Assembly: GCA_030386875.1 (NCBI GenBank)
Contig: CM059560.1
Location: 30,250,183 to 30,314,182 of the forward strand
DNA length: 64,000 nt
Source: Morinoia aosen
Lineage: Eukaryota > Arthropoda > Malacostraca > Amphipoda > Talitridae
Direction of reading: 5' to 3'
This document shows, piece after piece, positions 37,053-58,002 of the stretch (the stretch's first letter is position 1; each line of letters begins with the position of its first letter). Under the pieces are notes generated by a model. The model did not search any database, was not told the DNA's origin, and saw nothing but the letters and a program-made list of their open reading frames with translations. Made by a program: the position numbers and the translations under genes.

Positions 37053-37065
37053 GATACATTTTTAG
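37053..37065. repeat. Target-site duplication, left copy
   Basis: gatacatttttag, identical to 41,363-41,375 and immediately outside the PLE composite. The last three bases (tag) also fit the element's own pLTR edge, so 10-13 bp is the safe range. Confidence 0.85.
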
Positions 37066-37144
37066 AATAAAAAGAAGAACCAGAGTAAAAACGAACATTA
37101 CATTTATTGCAAACGTTTCGGAATTAAAATTCCATCATCAGTGC
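37063..37144 (-). repeat. PLE pLTR, 3' copy of the full-length element
   Basis: 82 bp identical to 39,859-39,940. On the minus strand it starts gcactgatgatgg and ends ttttattcta. The first three plus-strand bases overlap the target duplication. Confidence 0.9.
37100..37144 (-). ncRNA. Hammerhead-ribozyme-like core in the pLTR
   Basis: On the minus strand CTGATGA (37,135-37,141) is followed, after one extra T, by a GGAAT/ATTCC stem and GAAAC (37,115-37,119). An ACGTTT/AAATGT stem then ends before a GTA triplet. This is the order of CUGAUGA, stem II, GAAA, stem III and cleavage triplet in type I hammerheads, which are reported in PLE pLTRs. I could not fold a convincing stem I, so activity is uncertain. 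Confidence 0.5.
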
Positions 37145-37332
37145 TGGAACAGGAGAGAAAAAAAAAATAAATTGTCTATTCTAAACACAAAATCAAATTA
37201 TTCCACATAATTCTCTAAATGACTAAAAACCTAATTTGTTCGTTCATACTCAAACAATAGCATACTCCTAATTCACACAAAAACACATGTACACGCTAAT
37301 TCAGAAAACAACAACGAAACACACTATGCATT

Positions 37333-37356
37333 CACACACACACACACACACACACA
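37333..37356. repeat. (CA)12 microsatellite in the PLE 3' region
   Basis: Twelve CA units between the stop codon and pLTR of the minus-strand copy. The plus-strand copy has ten TG units at 41,024-41,043. Confidence 0.95.
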
Positions 37357-37374
37357 TGCACATGCAGAATTACG

Positions 37375-39894
37375 TCAGTAGGTGGGGGCAATTGATAACT
37401 TTACGGCACTAATGTCTTTGTTGAGGTTAGGTTTATGAGTGAATATGAAAAGGGACTCTAGAATTCTTAGGTCATGCTCACTATTAGCTCGGCATAAAGT
37501 TGAAAAATTAATAGTTTTGAATGAATGGTTCGTATTTTCACAGTGATCCCTAATTGCTGATTGGGGTGGAGTGGTTAGTGCACGACCGGTTCTATGAGAT
37601 ATTCCTGCATGTTGGCTATGTCTGATGAATTGTTGGAGTTTGGTACTACCAACGTAAGACTGCATGCAGCAGTCACACTTATAAAAATAGACACAGCCAC
37701 TCCACAGGCACTCATCCAGTCGTTCCTTCCTGCTAAAAAAGGATGCAATCTTAAAACTATTTCTATAAAACACTCTGACGTCGACCGTTGTAAAAAACCT
37801 ACTAACCAACGATACTACCTCCTTCTTCAGCTCTGCGTTCAAATAACCCATGAATGGTAACTCGACGTACAAGGTCTGCTTAGGTACGCTCAAGGTTGCA
37901 GGAGAGGGGCAAATTTTACGATCTAAAAATTTTTTTACACAATTCTGAATTAGTGATTTCGGATATTTGTTGTTGACCAATAAATTTACAATGTACTCAA
38001 CTTCAAGATGGAATATTTCATACGTACTGGATATGCGGTATGCACGATGAAGTAAACAGTCAATACATGATTTTATATACCCTTTATATACACAACTAAA
38101 ATAGTTCATAGTAAGCCCAGTGAATGTTGGCTTCCTATAGACAGAAGTAATGAGTTTTGAATTTGACTTTTTTATGAGAACGTCTAGGAATGGGATCTGA
38201 TCATTTTGTTCTAGCTCCATCGTAAATTTAATATTAGGATGAGATGTGTTAATATACTGAAAGAAACTATTGGCTGCAATTTCAGAGCGAAACAAAACAA
38301 ATGTATCGTCCAGATACCTTCGGTAAAATAAAGGCTTAAACTCCGGAGGACATTGGTTCAAAAAATGTTTTTCCAAATGGGCTAGAAAGGAGTTCGCTAT
38401 TAAAGGAGAGAGGTTAGATCCCATTGCAAGTCCGTCAATTTGCTTGTACGTTTTACCATTAAATACAAAATACGAATCTTTCAGCGCTACTTCAAGTAAA
38501 CGTTTGAATTGGGGTCTGTCGTAACTCAGGATGGTTCGGTTATCTTGAAAAATGCGGTCCAACAAAACATTAATTGCCTCATCCAGTGGAACATTAGTGT
38601 ACATAGACTCCACATCATAACTACACATGAAGAGATTATCTATGTTGCCAACAGTCGACAAATCGCGAACAAATTCATACGAATTTTCTACTGTATATTT
38701 ACTATTACAAAATGGGGATAGAATAGGAACTAAGTTCGCACACAGTTTAGAGTTGTGGGTATTGCACGCAGATAAAATAGGTCTCAGCGGTACATCAGGC
38801 TTATGAATTTTGGGCAAACCATATAACACTCCAAGTTGAGATCCTACAGAGCGACAAGTTTTATAAAAATCATCCGTTAAAATTCCTAAATCTTTATCTT
38901 TTTTAAGTTTGTAGTTGACCTTATTTTCCAGTTTCAACAATAAGGTTTTTGTGTCACTAAGGTCTTCACAAAATTTATCTCTGTCTGATAGAATTGATTC
39001 CATTTTTGAAATATAATCCCGTTTGTTAAGAATAACAACACCATTCCCTTTATCGGGTTTGGTAACGTAAATTGAATCATCAGTGCATAATTTCTTAAGA
39101 ATCGAAAAATCTTTGATTTTAAACATAGCACAAGCGTTACGATGGCGATCAAATTTGTTATAAAATTTATGAGCAAGTGTTTTCAGTTCGTTGGTGAAAG
39201 TTGCTCTACTATTGTGAATAAATGGAGAAATTTCAAACTTTGACAATTTGTCGTACAGCCGCTCAAATACTAAAAAATATCTGTAGAAATTCAGCTTGGT
39301 AATTGGTAAGCCAAAGTCTAGACCTAAGCATAAAACCCGTTTTTCGTCTGAAGACAGAGTCTTTGACGAAAAATTAAAAATAACATTAGACGGATCAATA
39401 TTATTGCACAGGGGTGAAACTCCTAACCTGACTAGTTTGTTCTTTTGTACTGCTCGGATGCGGTTCACATATTGCACTTGTTTGCGATAAAGCCATAATT
39501 TTAGACAGGCGAAGTCTATAGAGGATACCAGTGACTTCAGGTTGTGAAGGAAATCTTCATGGCGTCTTTCCACGGTCTTGAGTGTCCGTTGCTTGAACCT
39601 CAGTTCGTTCCAGAGTAGCTTACGCTGCAAGGAACGCCACAGGTCCGAAGTCTCCAATTGACGGCGGTAGAGACGAACTCGGAGGAATTTCGGTACGACT
39701 TCATAGTGATAACATGCACTCAAAAACTCTATATCACACACCAGTTTATCTTTCTTTTGCAGGTTTTTCTCCAGTCCACGAAACACTCTTAACACTGGAT
39801 CTCCATAGCGATTAGAAATTATATTTCCAATAGGGCGATTCTTCGAGAATCTTATTCGTAGAATAAAAAGAAGAACCAGAGTAAAAACGAACAT
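37375..39894 (-). CDS. Penelope-like retroelement polyprotein (RT and GIY-YIG endonuclease)
   Basis: Intact 839-codon frame that would reverse-transcribe and insert the element. Residues 277-295 carry the PLE motif TKPDKGNGVVILNKRDYI. YGLPKIHKP lies at 358-366. RT motif A is SYDVESMYTNVP (D427), motif B is GLAMGSNLSP (488-497), and motif C is YRRYLDDTF with the catalytic pair D529/D530. The thumb region has PFLDVLI (568-574) and VYRKPTFTG. A GIY-YIG endonuclease follows from about 733: VYFYKCDCC, YVGST (747-751), R758, H762, E813 and N823. Length fits canonical endonuclease-bearing PLEs. The start ATG lies inside the upstream pLTR, so the first 14 or so residues are pLTR-encoded; translation could also begin later. 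No stop or frameshift interrupts it, so it may be active or very recent. Confidence 0.95.
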   Translation of the reverse strand: MFVFTLVLLFILRIRFSKNRPIGNIISNRYGDPVLRVFRGLEKNLQKKDKLVCDIEFLSACYHYEVVPKFLRVRLYRRQLETSDLWRSLQRKLLWNELRFKQRTLKTVERRHEDFLHNLKSLVSSIDFACLKLWLYRKQVQYVNRIRAVQKNKLVRLGVSPLCNNIDPSNVIFNFSSKTLSSDEKRVLCLGLDFGLPITKLNFYRYFLVFERLYDKLSKFEISPFIHNSRATFTNELKTLAHKFYNKFDRHRNACAMFKIKDFSILKKLCTDDSIYVTKPDKGNGVVILNKRDYISKMESILSDRDKFCEDLSDTKTLLLKLENKVNYKLKKDKDLGILTDDFYKTCRSVGSQLGVLYGLPKIHKPDVPLRPILSACNTHNSKLCANLVPILSPFCNSKYTVENSYEFVRDLSTVGNIDNLFMCSYDVESMYTNVPLDEAINVLLDRIFQDNRTILSYDRPQFKRLLEVALKDSYFVFNGKTYKQIDGLAMGSNLSPLIANSFLAHLEKHFLNQCPPEFKPLFYRRYLDDTFVLFRSEIAANSFFQYINTSHPNIKFTMELEQNDQIPFLDVLIKKSNSKLITSVYRKPTFTGLTMNYFSCVYKGYIKSCIDCLLHRAYRISSTYEIFHLEVEYIVNLLVNNKYPKSLIQNCVKKFLDRKICPSPATLSVPKQTLYVELPFMGYLNAELKKEVVSLVSRFFTTVDVRVFYRNSFKIASFFSRKERLDECLWSGCVYFYKCDCCMQSYVGSTKLQQFIRHSQHAGISHRTGRALTTPPQSAIRDHCENTNHSFKTINFSTLCRANSEHDLRILESLFIFTHKPNLNKDISAVKLSIAPTY

Positions 39895-39940
39895 TACATT
39901 TATTGCAAACGTTTCGGAATTAAAATTCCATCATCAGTGC
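39859..39940 (-). repeat. PLE pLTR, 5' copy of the full-length element
   Basis: 82 bp direct repeat of 37,063-37,144. It contains the start codon of the PLE frame at 39,892-39,894 and probably the element's promoter, as is typical for the upstream pLTR. Confidence 0.9.
39896..39940 (-). ncRNA. Hammerhead-ribozyme-like core, 5' pLTR
   Basis: Same CTGATGA, 5 bp stem, GAAAC and ACGTTT/AAATGT arrangement as in the 3' pLTR, with identical bases. The element boundary falls two bases before the core (gcactgatga), and different sequence precedes it in each copy. Confidence 0.5.
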
Positions 39941-39979
39941 AGTAAAATTGGTAAAGGGAACAGTGAAAATTCCGAAAAT
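39941..39979. other. Unique spacer at the palindrome centre
   Basis: 39 bp that match neither PLE arm, between the 5' pLTR of the minus copy and the truncation point of the plus copy. It could be filler DNA added when the inverted copy was made. Confidence 0.7.
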
Positions 39980-41005
39980 ATAGCGAACTCCTTTCTAGCC
40001 CATTTGGAAAAACATTTTTTGAACCAATGTCCTCCGGAGTTTAAGCCTTTATTTTACCGAAGGTATCTGGACGATACATTTGTTTTGTTTCGCTCTGAAA
40101 TTGCAGCCAATAGTTTCTTTCAGTATATTAACACATCTCATCCTAATATTAAATTTACGATGGAGCTAGAACAAAATGATCAGATCCCATTCCTAGACGT
40201 TCTCATAAAAAAGTCAAATTCAAAACTCATTACTTCTGTCTATAGGAAGCCAACATTCACTGGGCTTACTATGAACTATTTTAGTTGTGTATATAAAGGG
40301 TATATAAAATCATGTATTGACTGTTTACTTCATCGTGCATACCGCATATCCAGTACGTATGAAATATTCCATCTTGAAGTTGAGTACATTGTAAATTTAT
40401 TGGTCAACAACAAATATCCGAAATCACTAATTCAGAATTGTGTAAAAAAATTTTTAGATCGTAAAATTTGCCCCTCTCCTGCAACCTTGAGCGTACCTAA
40501 GCAGACCTTGTACGTCGAGTTACCATTCATGGGTTATTTGAACGCAGAGCTGAAGAAGGAGGTAGTATCGTTGGTTAGTAGGTTTTTTACAACGGTCGAC
40601 GTCAGAGTGTTTTATAGAAATAGTTTTAAGATTGCATCCTTTTTTAGCAGGAAGGAACGACTGGATGAGTGCCTGTGGAGTGGCTGTGTCTATTTTTATA
40701 AGTGTGACTGCTGCATGCAGTCTTACGTTGGTAGTACCAAACTCCAACAATTCATCAGACATAGCCAACATGCAGGAATATCTCATAGAACCGGTCGTGC
40801 ACTAACCACTCCACCCCAATCAGCAATTAGGGATCACTGTGAAAATACGAACCATTCATTCAAAACTATTAATTTTTCAACTTTATGCCGAGCTAATAGT
40901 GAGCATGACCTAAGAATTCTAGAGTCCCTTTTCATATTCACTCATAAACCTAACCTCAACAAAGACATTAGTGCCGTAAAGTTATCAATTGCCCCCACCT
41001 ACTGA
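39980..41005 (+). pseudogene. 5'-truncated PLE copy, C-terminal half of RT plus endonuclease
   Basis: Open from the truncation point to the stop. It encodes the equivalent of residues 500-839 of the full-length protein, and the peptide is identical where compared (333 codons). It keeps RT motif C (YLDD) and the whole GIY-YIG domain but lacks motifs A and B, so it cannot be a working reverse transcriptase. No own start or promoter is visible. It faces the intact copy, so read-through from either side would give long double-stranded RNA. Confidence 0.9.
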
Positions 41006-41023
41006 CGTAATTCTGCATGTGCA

Positions 41024-41043
41024 TGTGTGTGTGTGTGTGTGTG
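41024..41043. repeat. (TG)10 microsatellite in the truncated PLE copy
   Basis: Counterpart of the (CA)12 tract in the other arm, two units shorter. This accounts exactly for the 4 bp offset between the two arms. Confidence 0.95.
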
Positions 41044-41231
41044 AATGCATAGTGTGTTTCGTTGTTGTTTTCTGAATTAGCGTGTACATGTGTTTTTGTG
41101 TGAATTAGGAGTATGCTATTGTTTGAGTATGAACGAACAAATTAGGTTTTTAGTCATTTAGAGAATTATGTGGAATAATTTGATTTTGTGTTTAGAATAG
41201 ACAATTTATTTTTTTTTTCTCTCCTGTTCCA

Positions 41232-41277
41232 GCACTGATGATGGAATTTTAATTCCGAAACGTTTGCAATAAATGTA
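41232..41277 (+). ncRNA. Hammerhead-ribozyme-like core, third copy
   Basis: CTGATGA at 41,235-41,241, then stem GGAAT/ATTCC, GAAAC, and ACGTTT-loop-AAATGT ending before GTA. Same caveat: no clear stem I. Confidence 0.5.
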
Positions 41278-41313
41278 ATGTTCGTTTTTACTCTGGTTCT
41301 TCTTTTTATTCTA
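41232..41313 (+). repeat. PLE pLTR of the truncated copy
   Basis: Third copy of the 82 bp pLTR, now on the plus strand, starting gcactgatgatgg and ending tttttattcta. It is followed by 49 bp of the next element's start. Confidence 0.9.
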
Positions 41314-41362
41314 CGAATAAGATTCTCGAAGAATCGCCCTATTGGAAATATAATTTCTAATC
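41314..41362 (+). repeat. 49 bp of a second element start beyond the pLTR
   Basis: Exact reverse complement of 39,810-39,858, that is, the sequence following the pLTR in the full-length element. It implies the copied template was a tandem array, with reverse transcription primed inside the following unit. Confidence 0.9.
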
Positions 41363-41375
41363 GATACATTTTTAG
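41363..41375. repeat. Target-site duplication, right copy
   Basis: gatacatttttag, matching 37,053-37,065. Confidence 0.85.
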
Positions 41376-42169: not shown

Positions 42170-42620
42170 TTCAGCAGGGCTATTATTAAATACGGCAGTG
42201 CTGTTTTTAAATGCGGTAGCGCTGTTATTAAATGCTACAGCGCTGTTATTAAACGCGGCAGCACTGTTATTAAATGCGGCAGTGCTGTTATTAAATGCAG
42301 CTGCGCTGTTATTAAATACGGCAGTGCTGTTATTCAAAGAAGTAGTGCCATTATTGAATGGGGCAGTGCCGTTGTGAAATACGTTGAAGCTGTTATTAAA
42401 TGCGGTAGTGTCGTGGTCAGATGCAATAATGCCGTTATTAAATCCAGTAGTGGTGTTAATAAATGCGGAAGAACTGTTATTAGAAGCGACACAGCGTTCT
42501 TCAGTACGGGAGTGGCGTTATTCAAGCGATATTAATGTTAATATAGAGGTGGTGCCGGTGTTCATGCAGCAGTACCGTCGTTATAGCGGTACTGCCGCTG
42601 TTCATGCGACCATCAACACA
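42170..42620. repeat. 21 bp minisatellite with graded decay
   Basis: Units of the form ctgttattaaatgcggcagtg. They are almost regular from 42,170 to 42,340, then increasingly diverged and interrupted to about 42,620. The 21 bp unit keeps heptad-periodic frames open on both strands (91 codons minus, 71 and 104 codons plus). None is likely a gene. Confidence 0.85.
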
Positions 42621-44996: not shown

Positions 44997-45467
44997 TAGA
45001 TCTAAGTCTATGCTTCAGAGTTAAGGGAGTCTAAGTCTATGCTTCAGAGTTAAGGGAGTCTAAGTCTATGCTTCAGAGTTAAGGGAGTCTAAGTCTATTC
45101 TTCAGAGTTAAGGGAGTCTATGTCTATGCTTCAGAGTTAAGGGAGTCTAAGTCTGTGCTTCAGAGTTAAGGGAGTCTAAGTCTATGCTTCAGAGTTAGGG
45201 GAGTCTAACTCTATGCCTCATAGTTAGGGGAGTCTAAGTCTATGCTTCAGAGTTAAGGGAGTCTAAGTCTGTGCTTCAGAGTTAAGGGAGTCTAAGTCTA
45301 TGCTTCAGAGTTAGGGGAGTCTAACTCTATGCTTCATAGTTAGGGGAGTCTAAGTCTATGCTTCAGAGTTAAGGGAGTCTAAGTCTATGCTTCAGAGTTA
45401 GGGGAGTCTAAGTCTATGCTTCAGAGTTTAGGGAGTCTAAGTCTATGCTTTAGAGTTGCCATAAGTT
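44997..45467. repeat. 29 bp minisatellite, about 16 copies, with 116 bp higher-order unit
   Basis: Unit tctaagtctatgcttcag plus agttaagggag. Variants (gtctgtgc, ctaactctatg with catagttagggg) recur in the same order 116 bp apart (gtctgtgctt at 45,151 and 45,267), so four-unit blocks were duplicated. Confidence 0.95.
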
Positions 45468-50757: not shown

Positions 50758-51245
50758 AACCCGTAGCCATTCATTGTAACTTCCGTAGCCGTTCATTATT
50801 ACTACTGTTGCCATTCCGTAGCCGTTCATTGTAACTACCGTAGCCGTTCATTGTAACTACCGTAGCCGTTCATTATTACTACTGTTGCCATTCCGTAGCC
50901 GTATATTGTAACTACCGTAGCCGTTCATTGTAACTACCGTAGCCGTTCATTATTACTACTGTTGCCATTCCGTAGCCGTATATTGTAACTACCGTAGCCG
51001 TTCATTGTAACTACCGTAGCCGTTCATTATTACTACTGTTGCCATTCCGTAGCCGTTCATTGTAACTACCGTAGCCGTTCATTGTAACTACCGTAGCCGT
51101 TCATTATTACTACTGTTGCCATTCCGTAGCCGTTCATCGTAACTACCGTAGCCGTTCATTGTAACTACCGTAGCCGTTCATTATTACTACTGTTGCCATT
51201 CCGTAGCCGTTCATTGTAACTACCGTAGCCGTTCATTGTAGCCAC
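50758..51245. repeat. Minisatellite with exact 77 bp higher-order unit
   Basis: The basic unit ccgtagccgttcattgtaac (22 bp with ta) occurs twice, then a 33 bp variant ending attactactgttgccatt. gttgccatt recurs at 50,807, 50,884, 50,961, 51,038, 51,115 and 51,192, always 77 bp apart. Copies are almost identical, so the array is young or homogenised. Confidence 0.95.
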
Positions 51246-51249
51246 TAAA

Positions 51250-52820
51250 GCCTTTCTGTAGCCTTCACTGTTTCCTCTCATCGGAACTACCCATTATTGT
51301 GATGTTGATGTCGACCAGCAGAAAACAAACTGTGAATTTAAAAACTATAATTTCAAACCTGAATGTGCTCCTGTTGATTTGTGTTCAGTAAAAACAGTGG
51401 TAAAAGATAACTAAGGCCGGTGATGCCAAGCGAAGGTGTGTGGCGCCTTCACTGGTCATGTTAACTCCTCTGAACACTTGCGATGATGGTTGGAGGAACA
51501 ATTTCCTTGAAATATCATCTGGAAGAAAGTGACTGCTGGTGTTGGAAACAAAATTATGATAGTTTTATTTTTTTAAATCATGTTTGATCCACTGAAAAAT
51601 TATTTTTTGGATTAAGTAATCCAATTTCAAGTCAATCTGTAGGACTACATTTGGAAAATTACAAAAAAGCCCTTCAAGCGCCTTTTTCTTCGTAACGCTT
51701 TTCCGAGTTTTTAAGTAGGATAGTGCATCATGTGAAAAAGGAAATGGACAGCAATTTTTCACCCCTGAATTCCCCATCAAAATTTATTCAAACTGAAATT
51801 GCTAAAGTGTGTCCTAGCTAAATAACGAGTGCTTAGTACCGCAACCTTCTTCAGATAAGCTGATGCGGTAGAAACCTTGTAAGAAGTCGTCTGCGTTTGA
51901 TTTCCTTGTTTTTGTTTAATTAGGTCCTGCTATTTTCCAGTACACATGAAGTAGTCGAACGATTTAATTTTTATGTAACTAAATTAGGTAGTAAAATGAT
52001 TTATAATTGTTTGTTATTAGGTGGAAAACAGCGAATCGCATGTGAAACATCATTATAAATGACGATAATTTGCCACTTTGCTTGTACACGAAATCAGTTA
52101 TAAACAACTTAGATTATTCTAACTATATAAATTTAGAGTGTTTTCAGTTGCATCCCTTGCATTTACTGAACTAATTTTCTCCGCTTTTCTCGTCCAAGAA
52201 GATGTAATGAATTACTAAAGACTAACGGTACTCGTCGTATAAAGTGGATTTACGTAGCCTTATAGATGCTTAAATGTTGTATATCTTCAATTATATATCA
52301 GATTCTCCCCGCCATTACAGCATGGGTATGTCATGTAATCAAGCAACTGAAACAATTTCTAAACAATAATTCAGGATTCTTATTAAACCACAAAAATGGA
52401 ATGATGTTAAAAAACCGGGTTTTCCCAACCCTGATGTGCTCAGAATGATCTTATGTGAAGTTTATTGCTTTGGAAAAAACCTGTTAAAGTAACGTCTGAT
52501 CTACCGCGTCATTCTGTGGTGCTCATACCCACTCCCTGTTTCATAATGTGCGGTATTCGAGCTGGAAACTCAACTAAATTAAATTCATGTTAGAAACCGT
52601 ACTCAATAATTTCGCTCTCATGAAATGTGAGCTGTAAATGTGAGTTTATATTGGCGCCCATTGACGCTCAATTTTAAAATAGTTATTAAATTTTAAAAAA
52701 ATTTAAATGTTCTTCTAATTTCATTGTTGTTCATAAAAGATGGATGCATTTCATTGTATTCCGCCATTATAGTTTCTTGTATAACTCGAGAGTAACCCAC
52801 AGTTTCTCACTCCGCGAAAA
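51250..52820. other. Unassigned non-coding stretch
   Basis: No frame above 71 codons and no repeat recognised. Confidence 0.5.
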
Positions 52821-57144: not shown

Positions 57145-57905
57145 ACAGCACACTCATACATGCATATATTACACCGCATACAGCACGTATAAAACACAGC
57201 ACACTTATACATGCACATAATACACAGCATTCCGAACGCATAATGCACAACACACTCACACATGAACATAATACACCGCATACAACACGTATAACACACA
57301 GCACACTTATAAATGCTAATAATACACTACAAACAGCACATATAACACACAGCACACTCATACATATAAATAATACACCGCATACAACACGTATAACACA
57401 CAGCACACTCATACATGCTCACAATACACTGCAAACAGCACATATAACACACAGCACACTCATACATACACATAATACACCGCATACAGCACGTATAACA
57501 CACAACACACTCATGCAGGCACTTAATACACCGCATACTTCACGTATAACACACAACACACTCATGCAGGTACTTAATACACCGCATACAGCACGTATAA
57601 CACTCAGCACCCTCATGCAGGCACTTAATACACCGCATACAGCATGTATAACACACAGCACACTCATGCAGGCACATAATACAACACATACAGCACATAT
57701 AACACTCAGCACCCTCATGCAGGCGCTTAAAACACCGCATACAGCACGTATAACACACAGTACCCTCATGCAGGTACTTCATCATAGCAGACAGCACGTA
57801 CAACACTCACCACCCTCAAGCAGGTACTTGATCACCGCATACAGCACGTATAACACTCAGCACCCTCAAGCAGGTACTTGATCACCGCATACAGCACGTA
57901 TAACA
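57145..57905. repeat. 51 bp minisatellite, about 15 copies
   Basis: Units contain aatacaccgcatacagcacg and tataacacacagcacactcatgcaggc-type sequence. ccgcatac recurs at 57,480, 57,531 and 57,582 (51 bp apart). In the first half two variants alternate (accgcatac and ctgcaaac), giving a 102 bp period. Since 51 is a multiple of three, frames of 212 codons (+) and up to 116 codons (-) stay open with a 17-residue period. No promoter, start context or splice site supports a gene. Confidence 0.95.
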
Positions 57906-58002
57906 CAGCGCTTGAGTGAACTCTGAGATCGACCTTGAACTTCAGCTTGTGCTCCTGAGACAGAGCTCCCTCCCCCCTTTGTGGAGCGGCTGGTGAGGGC
58001 TG

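Follow-up and report, generated by a model that had tools for sequence, protein, structure and literature searches.

A head-to-head pair of Penelope-like copies in the amphipod Morinoia aosen is consistent with one insertion primed from both target ends and carries a spliced leader at one head

Introduction

How a retroelement comes to occupy one target site as two copies that face each other is the question raised by a locus in the amphipod Morinoia aosen. There, at positions 37,053 to 41,375 of a 64,000-nucleotide (nt) stretch of the forward strand (NCBI assembly GCA_030386875.1, contig CM059560.1, positions 30,250,183 to 30,314,182; the whole stretch is called the window below), a full-length and a 5′-truncated copy of a Penelope-like element stand head to head. 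An initial reading made without database searches (the sequence-only reading) had taken the pair for one integration event rather than two independent insertions and had suggested an inverted-duplicate intermediate, formed for example by template switching or strand turn-around during target-primed reverse transcription. Our comparisons leave one integration event well supported, and we favor, at a probability of roughly 0.7, the reading that the element inserted once, with reverse transcription primed on the two sides of a single staggered cut in the target and the longer copy reaching the 5′ end of an RNA that bore a leader. Little is known about the mobility of Penelope elements (PMC11167929; this and the other papers cited by PMC number were available as excerpts, to which our statements about them apply).

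Results

Structure of the locus

Copy A (37063..39939, minus strand, 2.9 kb) and copy B (39980..41313, plus strand, 1.4 kb) lie with their 5′ ends facing. From left to right, copy A comprises a tailless 3′ end, the 3′ untranslated region, the open reading frame (ORF) and a 5′ partial pseudo-long terminal repeat (pLTR), and copy B is 5′-truncated, starting at about position 1459 of the unit. Unit coordinates (R; 2796 nt) count from the base after ...TTTATTCTA, the point at which copy A ends. The two arms (37063-38400 and 39980-41313; 1338 and 1334 nt) align with no mismatches and differ by one 4-nt gap in a CA repeat, with an exact stretch of 1071 nt, which bears out both the 1.33-kb arms and the facing full-length and truncated copies of the sequence-only reading. 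The left end of copy A has no tail, and copy B ends on the right in a 50-nt extension (41314..41363, plus strand) made of the sequence that follows the pLTR end, which repeats the ORF start as it would stand in a next unit; by the coordinates, 12 ORF codons stand before the tail.

The pair is bounded by two copies of GATACATTTTTAG on the plus strand (37053..37065 and 41363..41375). Elsewhere in the window this sequence has no match at one mismatch or fewer; in 100 shuffled sequences matches averaged 0.20, and two were reached in 4 of the shuffles. What stands of the single 13-bp duplication proposed earlier is one duplication outside the pair, its size being fixed only to 9-13 bp, since as many as 3 nt in the copy on the left and 1 nt in the copy on the right could be element sequence.

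At the center, 40 nt lie outside both arms: a 34-nt spliced leader (39940..39973, minus strand; a variant ending in CCAATTTTACTG) forms the head of copy A, and a 6-nt filler, GAAAAT (39974..39979, no strand assigned), joins the two heads and repeats the GAAAAT of the adjoining leader. Read in the sense of copy A, the filler is followed by GGAATTTTCACTGTTCCCTTTACCAATTTTACTG and then by CACTGATGATGG, which opens the 81-nt partial pLTR directly after the leader. The pLTR is present in the window as an 82-nt direct repeat, and the 3′ pLTR of copy A contains a predicted trans-splice acceptor, a polypyrimidine tract and AG before CACTGATGATGG (37144..37165, minus strand). An explanation of the central filler as random junction DNA was dropped, the sequence being found again at another pair (L058) and genome-wide.

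Head-to-head insertions in the host genome

We searched the host assembly (1.99 Gb, 29 contigs) with the pLTR, without regard to orientation, and scored 40 of 2625 candidates. These fall in 12 insertions, the window included, and the regions of the other 11 were read. Ten of the 12 are head-to-head pairs, built of single units or of tandem arrays of ∼2.79 kb units; one insertion (C17a) is one-armed and another (C17b) is of ambiguous layout. The pLTR ends are well preserved in hundreds of places (61 exact 26-mer sites for tailless ends and 348 for other ends), of which 21 and 100, respectively, were typed. Among the sites listed there are 99 clusters; all 17 of those with several sites are head to head and none is tail to tail, and the 82 single ones may be one-armed or have mutated partners. 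Fourteen of the 17 multi-site clusters were newly read, in addition to three that had been read before; L059 repeats the flanks of L058, and the two were counted once. This sample of pairs is biased toward young, well-preserved copies. The sequence-only reading had proposed looking in the genome for other copies with this inverted layout; 10 of the 12 insertions and all 17 listed multi-site clusters show it. The layout is ordinary for Penelope-like elements and not exceptional: it is typical for Penelope (PMC3846280), and head-to-head pairs, tails and duplications have already been published for this group.

The survey yielded several further observations. An array at G000:C14:58401000-58443999 (L013-L024, L036 and L037) consists of 10 full plus-strand units of ∼2790 nt, flanked on each side by a partial unit and accompanied by about two units on the minus strand. 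Differences within an arm amount to 0.27/kb, and this near-identity suggests either that a single long RNA, tandem or circular, was copied or that the units were homogenized later. The short Penelope pairs L058 and L059 (C7:46033550 and C7:48026230) have recurring flanks as far as read and are likely a segmental duplication, and the same applies to the short pairs L092 and L093 (C23 and C24), which have common flanks as far as read. Plus-strand arms of L036, L039 and L040 begin at R2044-2049, a possible hotspot of reverse transcriptase stops or RNA breaks.

Evidence for a single insertion from one source

Direct repeats of at least 9 nt (median 12) lie outside 18 of 21 pairs, the window included, compared with 4 of 420 mismatched pairings; the three shorter repeats measure 7 nt (L053), 7 nt (L058) and 5 nt (L054). 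The arms of a pair also resemble each other more than units of different insertions do. Between the opposite arms of an insertion the divergence is 2.23/kb (61 comparisons), and between units of different insertions it is 5.81/kb (1526 comparisons, the older C14a included), leaving out matches under 250 nt, comparisons with fewer than 200 shared positions and the CA repeat. Divergence is lower within the insertion in all 10 two-armed insertions, by a small margin in C14a and C16, and the window arms show 0 differences over 1278 positions. Moreover, both window arms carry C at R1645 and T at R2663, variants absent from all other units with sequence there (47 and 55 units, respectively). The joined target site, sought with up to 2 mismatches, had 0 matches in the assembly. 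The single outer duplication, the flank comparison and the two private variants common to the arms agree with the earlier claim that both copies arrived in one integration event.

Ends and junctions

The pairs follow one rule at their outer ends. In 21 independent pairs read at both ends, one end has a tail of 32-50 nt (43 nt in C14a) and the other 0-11 nt; a 22nd pair, C10, has a tailed left end and a right end judged by a one-base pattern (not the first tail base). Exactly one outer end is thus tailed in 22 of 22 independent pairs, an outcome with a chance of at most 0.5^22 (∼2e-7) if ends were independent. Because a stretch of N covers the right end of C14b, this end was left out of the tail count; the 22 rows of end scoring included L059, which the direct-repeat test dropped as a duplicate. 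Three further independent pairs chosen by their leader (C20, C21 and C23, the flanks of C23 recurring at C24) have one tailed end each by eye; the untailed end of C23 is close to the tailless point, whereas those of C20 and C21 stop before it, by ∼25 nt and ∼14 nt, respectively. Of the 22 pairs, 12 have their tailless end on the left, and we saw no clear link between tail and arm length, the tailless arm being longer in 14 of 22. Comparable ends are described elsewhere: a tail is optional on one of the inverted pLTRs in Adineta vaga (PMC3846280), and the tail in Anolis is the stretch between two start sites of reverse transcription, in a study that reports in vitro cleavage and extension of both target strands (PMC11167929).

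At the inner ends, arms mostly break at unlike positions (R2715 and R1459 in the window, R2203 and R215 in a pair on C7). Nevertheless, 6 of 22 pairs have arm ends no more than 60 nt apart, compared with 0.79 expected on shuffled arms. Among 17 junctions counted, 7 have overlaps of 2-6 nt, 9 have filler of 1-22 nt and 1 has filler of 128 nt; this count leaves out the window, L050, L051, L053, L054, L058 and L059, and break points are approximate in L038, L044 and L052, where the junction is in or next to the CA repeat.

The leader sequence

The leader of the window has A in place of a CG found in another variant, and that CG variant, present at L058 and in other elements, is identical at 34 of 34 positions to the published leader of the amphipod Parhyale hawaiensis. 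In that species it was trimmed from transcriptome reads as a spliced leader, citing Douris et al. 2009 (PMC5111886); the same 34 nt stand here at element heads in DNA, and by itself this match would point to an amphipod crustacean as host. The 25-nt core of the leader occurs 463 times in the genome, and at the loci sampled (4 and 20, with one place in common, and with L081 and L082 probably a single site that was duplicated) several repeat kinds have it at their heads with, by eye, unrelated DNA upstream. A single element type bears three variants of the leader (GTACCAAGT; GTGCCGAAC), which is what addition of a new leader each time would produce.

In Penelope units the leader is joined at one place, following the only AG of the unit, on either strand, that is preceded by at least 17 pyrimidines in 20 nt. 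Seven sites show this pattern (the window, L058/L059 and L090-L093). In the other six, leader sequence is present on both heads, and each arm contains no more than the pLTR, whole or in part, before flanking DNA begins; an ORF follows the leader only in the window. Because the leader joins at the sole strong polypyrimidine-AG, copy A resembles a complete reverse transcript of Penelope RNA that had been trans-spliced.

Other repeats carry the leader as well. Several families sampled at L061-L084, LINE-like by guess, have it at their 5′ ends, so that trans-spliced templates seem to be common in the host genome. In L079 and L085, which belong to other families, it is followed by a hammerhead-like CTGAAGA...GAAACG, and in L089, again of another family, by GAAACG; L085 is a head-to-head leader-leader pair in such a hammerhead-like family.

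Coding region and neighboring repeats

The ORF of copy A (37375..39894, minus strand; ATG at 39894, stop at 37375) encodes 839 amino acids and a reverse transcriptase (RT) with the motif YLDD. Its RT domain matches Pfam RVT_1 (E 1.1e-11), and its matches to solved retron and group II RTs were only weak. A C-terminal motif (CVYFYKC..YVGST) resembles a GIY-YIG nuclease by eye only, and the AlphaFold model of the C-terminal 230 amino acids was too poor to use (pLDDT 36). The 5′ pLTR contains at 39911..39939 (minus strand) a core, CTGATGA...GAAAC, which we take to be hammerhead-like. Assignment of this putative Penelope-like element to its class rests on the pLTR, the tail and the layout. To the right of the pair, the window holds tandem arrays at 42174-42482 (21-bp units), 45001-45457 (29-bp), 50761-51271 (77/22-bp) and 57145-57907 (51-bp).

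Discussion

The DNA shows directly how the locus is built: its duplication, its unequal tails, the variants private to its two arms, and which leader it bears and where. From these features we infer that both target ends primed, that the cDNA ends were joined and that the Penelope RNA had been trans-spliced. One staggered cut would have opened the target, and each cut end would have started its own cDNA in the 3′ region of element RNA from a single source. The cDNA begun at the inner start site would have become the tailless copy A, and the one begun ∼50 nt further on the tailed copy B. Copy A would then have been read through to the RNA 5′ end bearing the trans-spliced leader of the host, with copy B stopping early, and the free heads would have been joined with the 6-nt filler to leave a head-to-head pair within one target duplication.

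The closest competitor is the turn-around of the sequence-only reading, in which a primed cDNA, on reaching its end, makes the second arm by self-copying, after a fold-back or a switch of template to its own strand or an antisense one. Self-priming on an antisense template is the route preferred for the palindromes of A. vaga (PMC3846280), and private variants common to both arms fit it as well as they fit two cDNAs from one source. Arm ends that nearly coincide in 6 of 22 pairs could reflect either a fold-back or two cDNAs reaching the same RNA end, and we have therefore kept turn-around as a rival. However, because the variants are common to the arms while most arms end at unlike unit positions, and because self-copying does not predict that exactly one outer end is tailed, as in all 22 pairs, we favor two cDNAs over a hairpin; in the window, moreover, the leader of copy A has no mirror in copy B. 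With overlaps and fillers at the junctions in addition, we consider this part of the earlier proposal unlikely, and less likely than both-end priming. Two separate insertions, of which the later one landed in or next to the earlier, are rejected as extremely improbable: they are at odds with the single outer duplication, with the private variants common to both arms and with listed multi-site clusters that are head to head in 17 of 17 cases, with no other arrangement, and the earlier claim against them holds. Near-identical inverted arms are also a known hazard in genome assembly, which raises the concern that a single real copy was assembled as a palindrome. The window arms, however, differ in the 4-nt CA indel, their ends, the tail and the leader, and 22 other independent loci show the same layout with other break points, so that we reject an assembly artefact, too, as having scarcely any chance of being correct.

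A separate doubt concerns the leader, which might be a 5′ promoter motif common to several retroelement families rather than a spliced leader. Published precedent exists in Pr77 of trypanosomatids (PMC8190864), and many leader sites in our sample precede related 5′ ends of other repeats. A leader RNA gene, moreover, was not found with the three patterns to which the search was limited: the GTRWG donor pattern gave 0 matches, the Sm-site pattern gave one Sm-like match resembling a dispersed repeat copy, and none was recognized in the 6 sites read of 23 with leader and GT. In contrast, the 34 of 34 identity of the CG variant to a sequence trimmed as a spliced leader in Parhyale, the three variants within one element type and the join at the only strong polypyrimidine-AG of the Penelope unit all argue for trans-splicing, and we regard the promoter motif as improbable. 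The missing leader RNA gene and the coinciding arm ends count against the overall reading of both-end priming from a leader-bearing RNA, as do four other results: the one-armed insertion C17a, the absence of a GIY-YIG nuclease match in a Pfam search of the ORF, the lack of any hammerhead hit in Rfam with E values as high as 10 and the report for Anolis that the start site is alike on both strands, from which the one-tail rule is not predicted (PMC11167929).

Both-end priming has a parallel in LINE-1 twin priming, or 5′ inversion, in which the second target end primes a second cDNA and the strands are joined by microhomology. That process is similar in its use of the second target end and differs in that the second start is internal and the product has one element 3′ end, whereas both ends are 3′ ends here. 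Among Penelope elements, the endonuclease-containing Pen2a_Av and Pen2_Av of A. vaga share with the window element an ORF between pLTRs, an adjoining inverted pLTR, one outer duplication and an optional tail on one inverted pLTR (31 bp there), and the pLTR of Pen2a_Av takes in the first 12 ORF codons, just as 12 codons stand before the tail here; in contrast, no spliced leader is mentioned in the excerpt on A. vaga (PMC3846280), and the inverted arm in our host is often kilobases long, with 11 full units in the C16 array. Poseidon PAc of Anolis carolinensis likewise has tandem arrays with a pLTR, a hammerhead motif (a candidate core here), start sites that bracket the tail and cutting and extension of both target strands (in vitro there, inferred from the genome here), but neither the pairing of tailed with tailless genomic ends nor a leader is mentioned in the excerpt on that element (PMC11167929).

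A broader and tentative proposal, to which we give somewhat less than even odds, is that Penelope in this lineage depends on the host leader: transcripts of long tandem arrays would be trans-spliced at the 5′ edge of the pLTR into capped single-unit RNAs, and one RNA, or one dimeric particle, would be read twice, once from each start site. Reading from two start sites in this way would give every two-ended insertion one tailed and one tailless end. A stretch of the presumed hammerhead stem may be lost in this splicing as well. A literature search by titles and abstract openings, incomplete in coverage, returned no report on trans-splicing of Penelope, which is weak evidence of novelty.

The one-tail rule, the variants common to both arms and the leader-tipped heads set limits, open to test, on how priming starts, which template is copied and how the ends are joined in an element family about whose mobility little is known. 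In particular, a leader at the head marks the start of the template RNA, which is invisible in 5′-truncated copies, and a leader-tipped Penelope would tie trans-splicing to retrotransposition in crustaceans.

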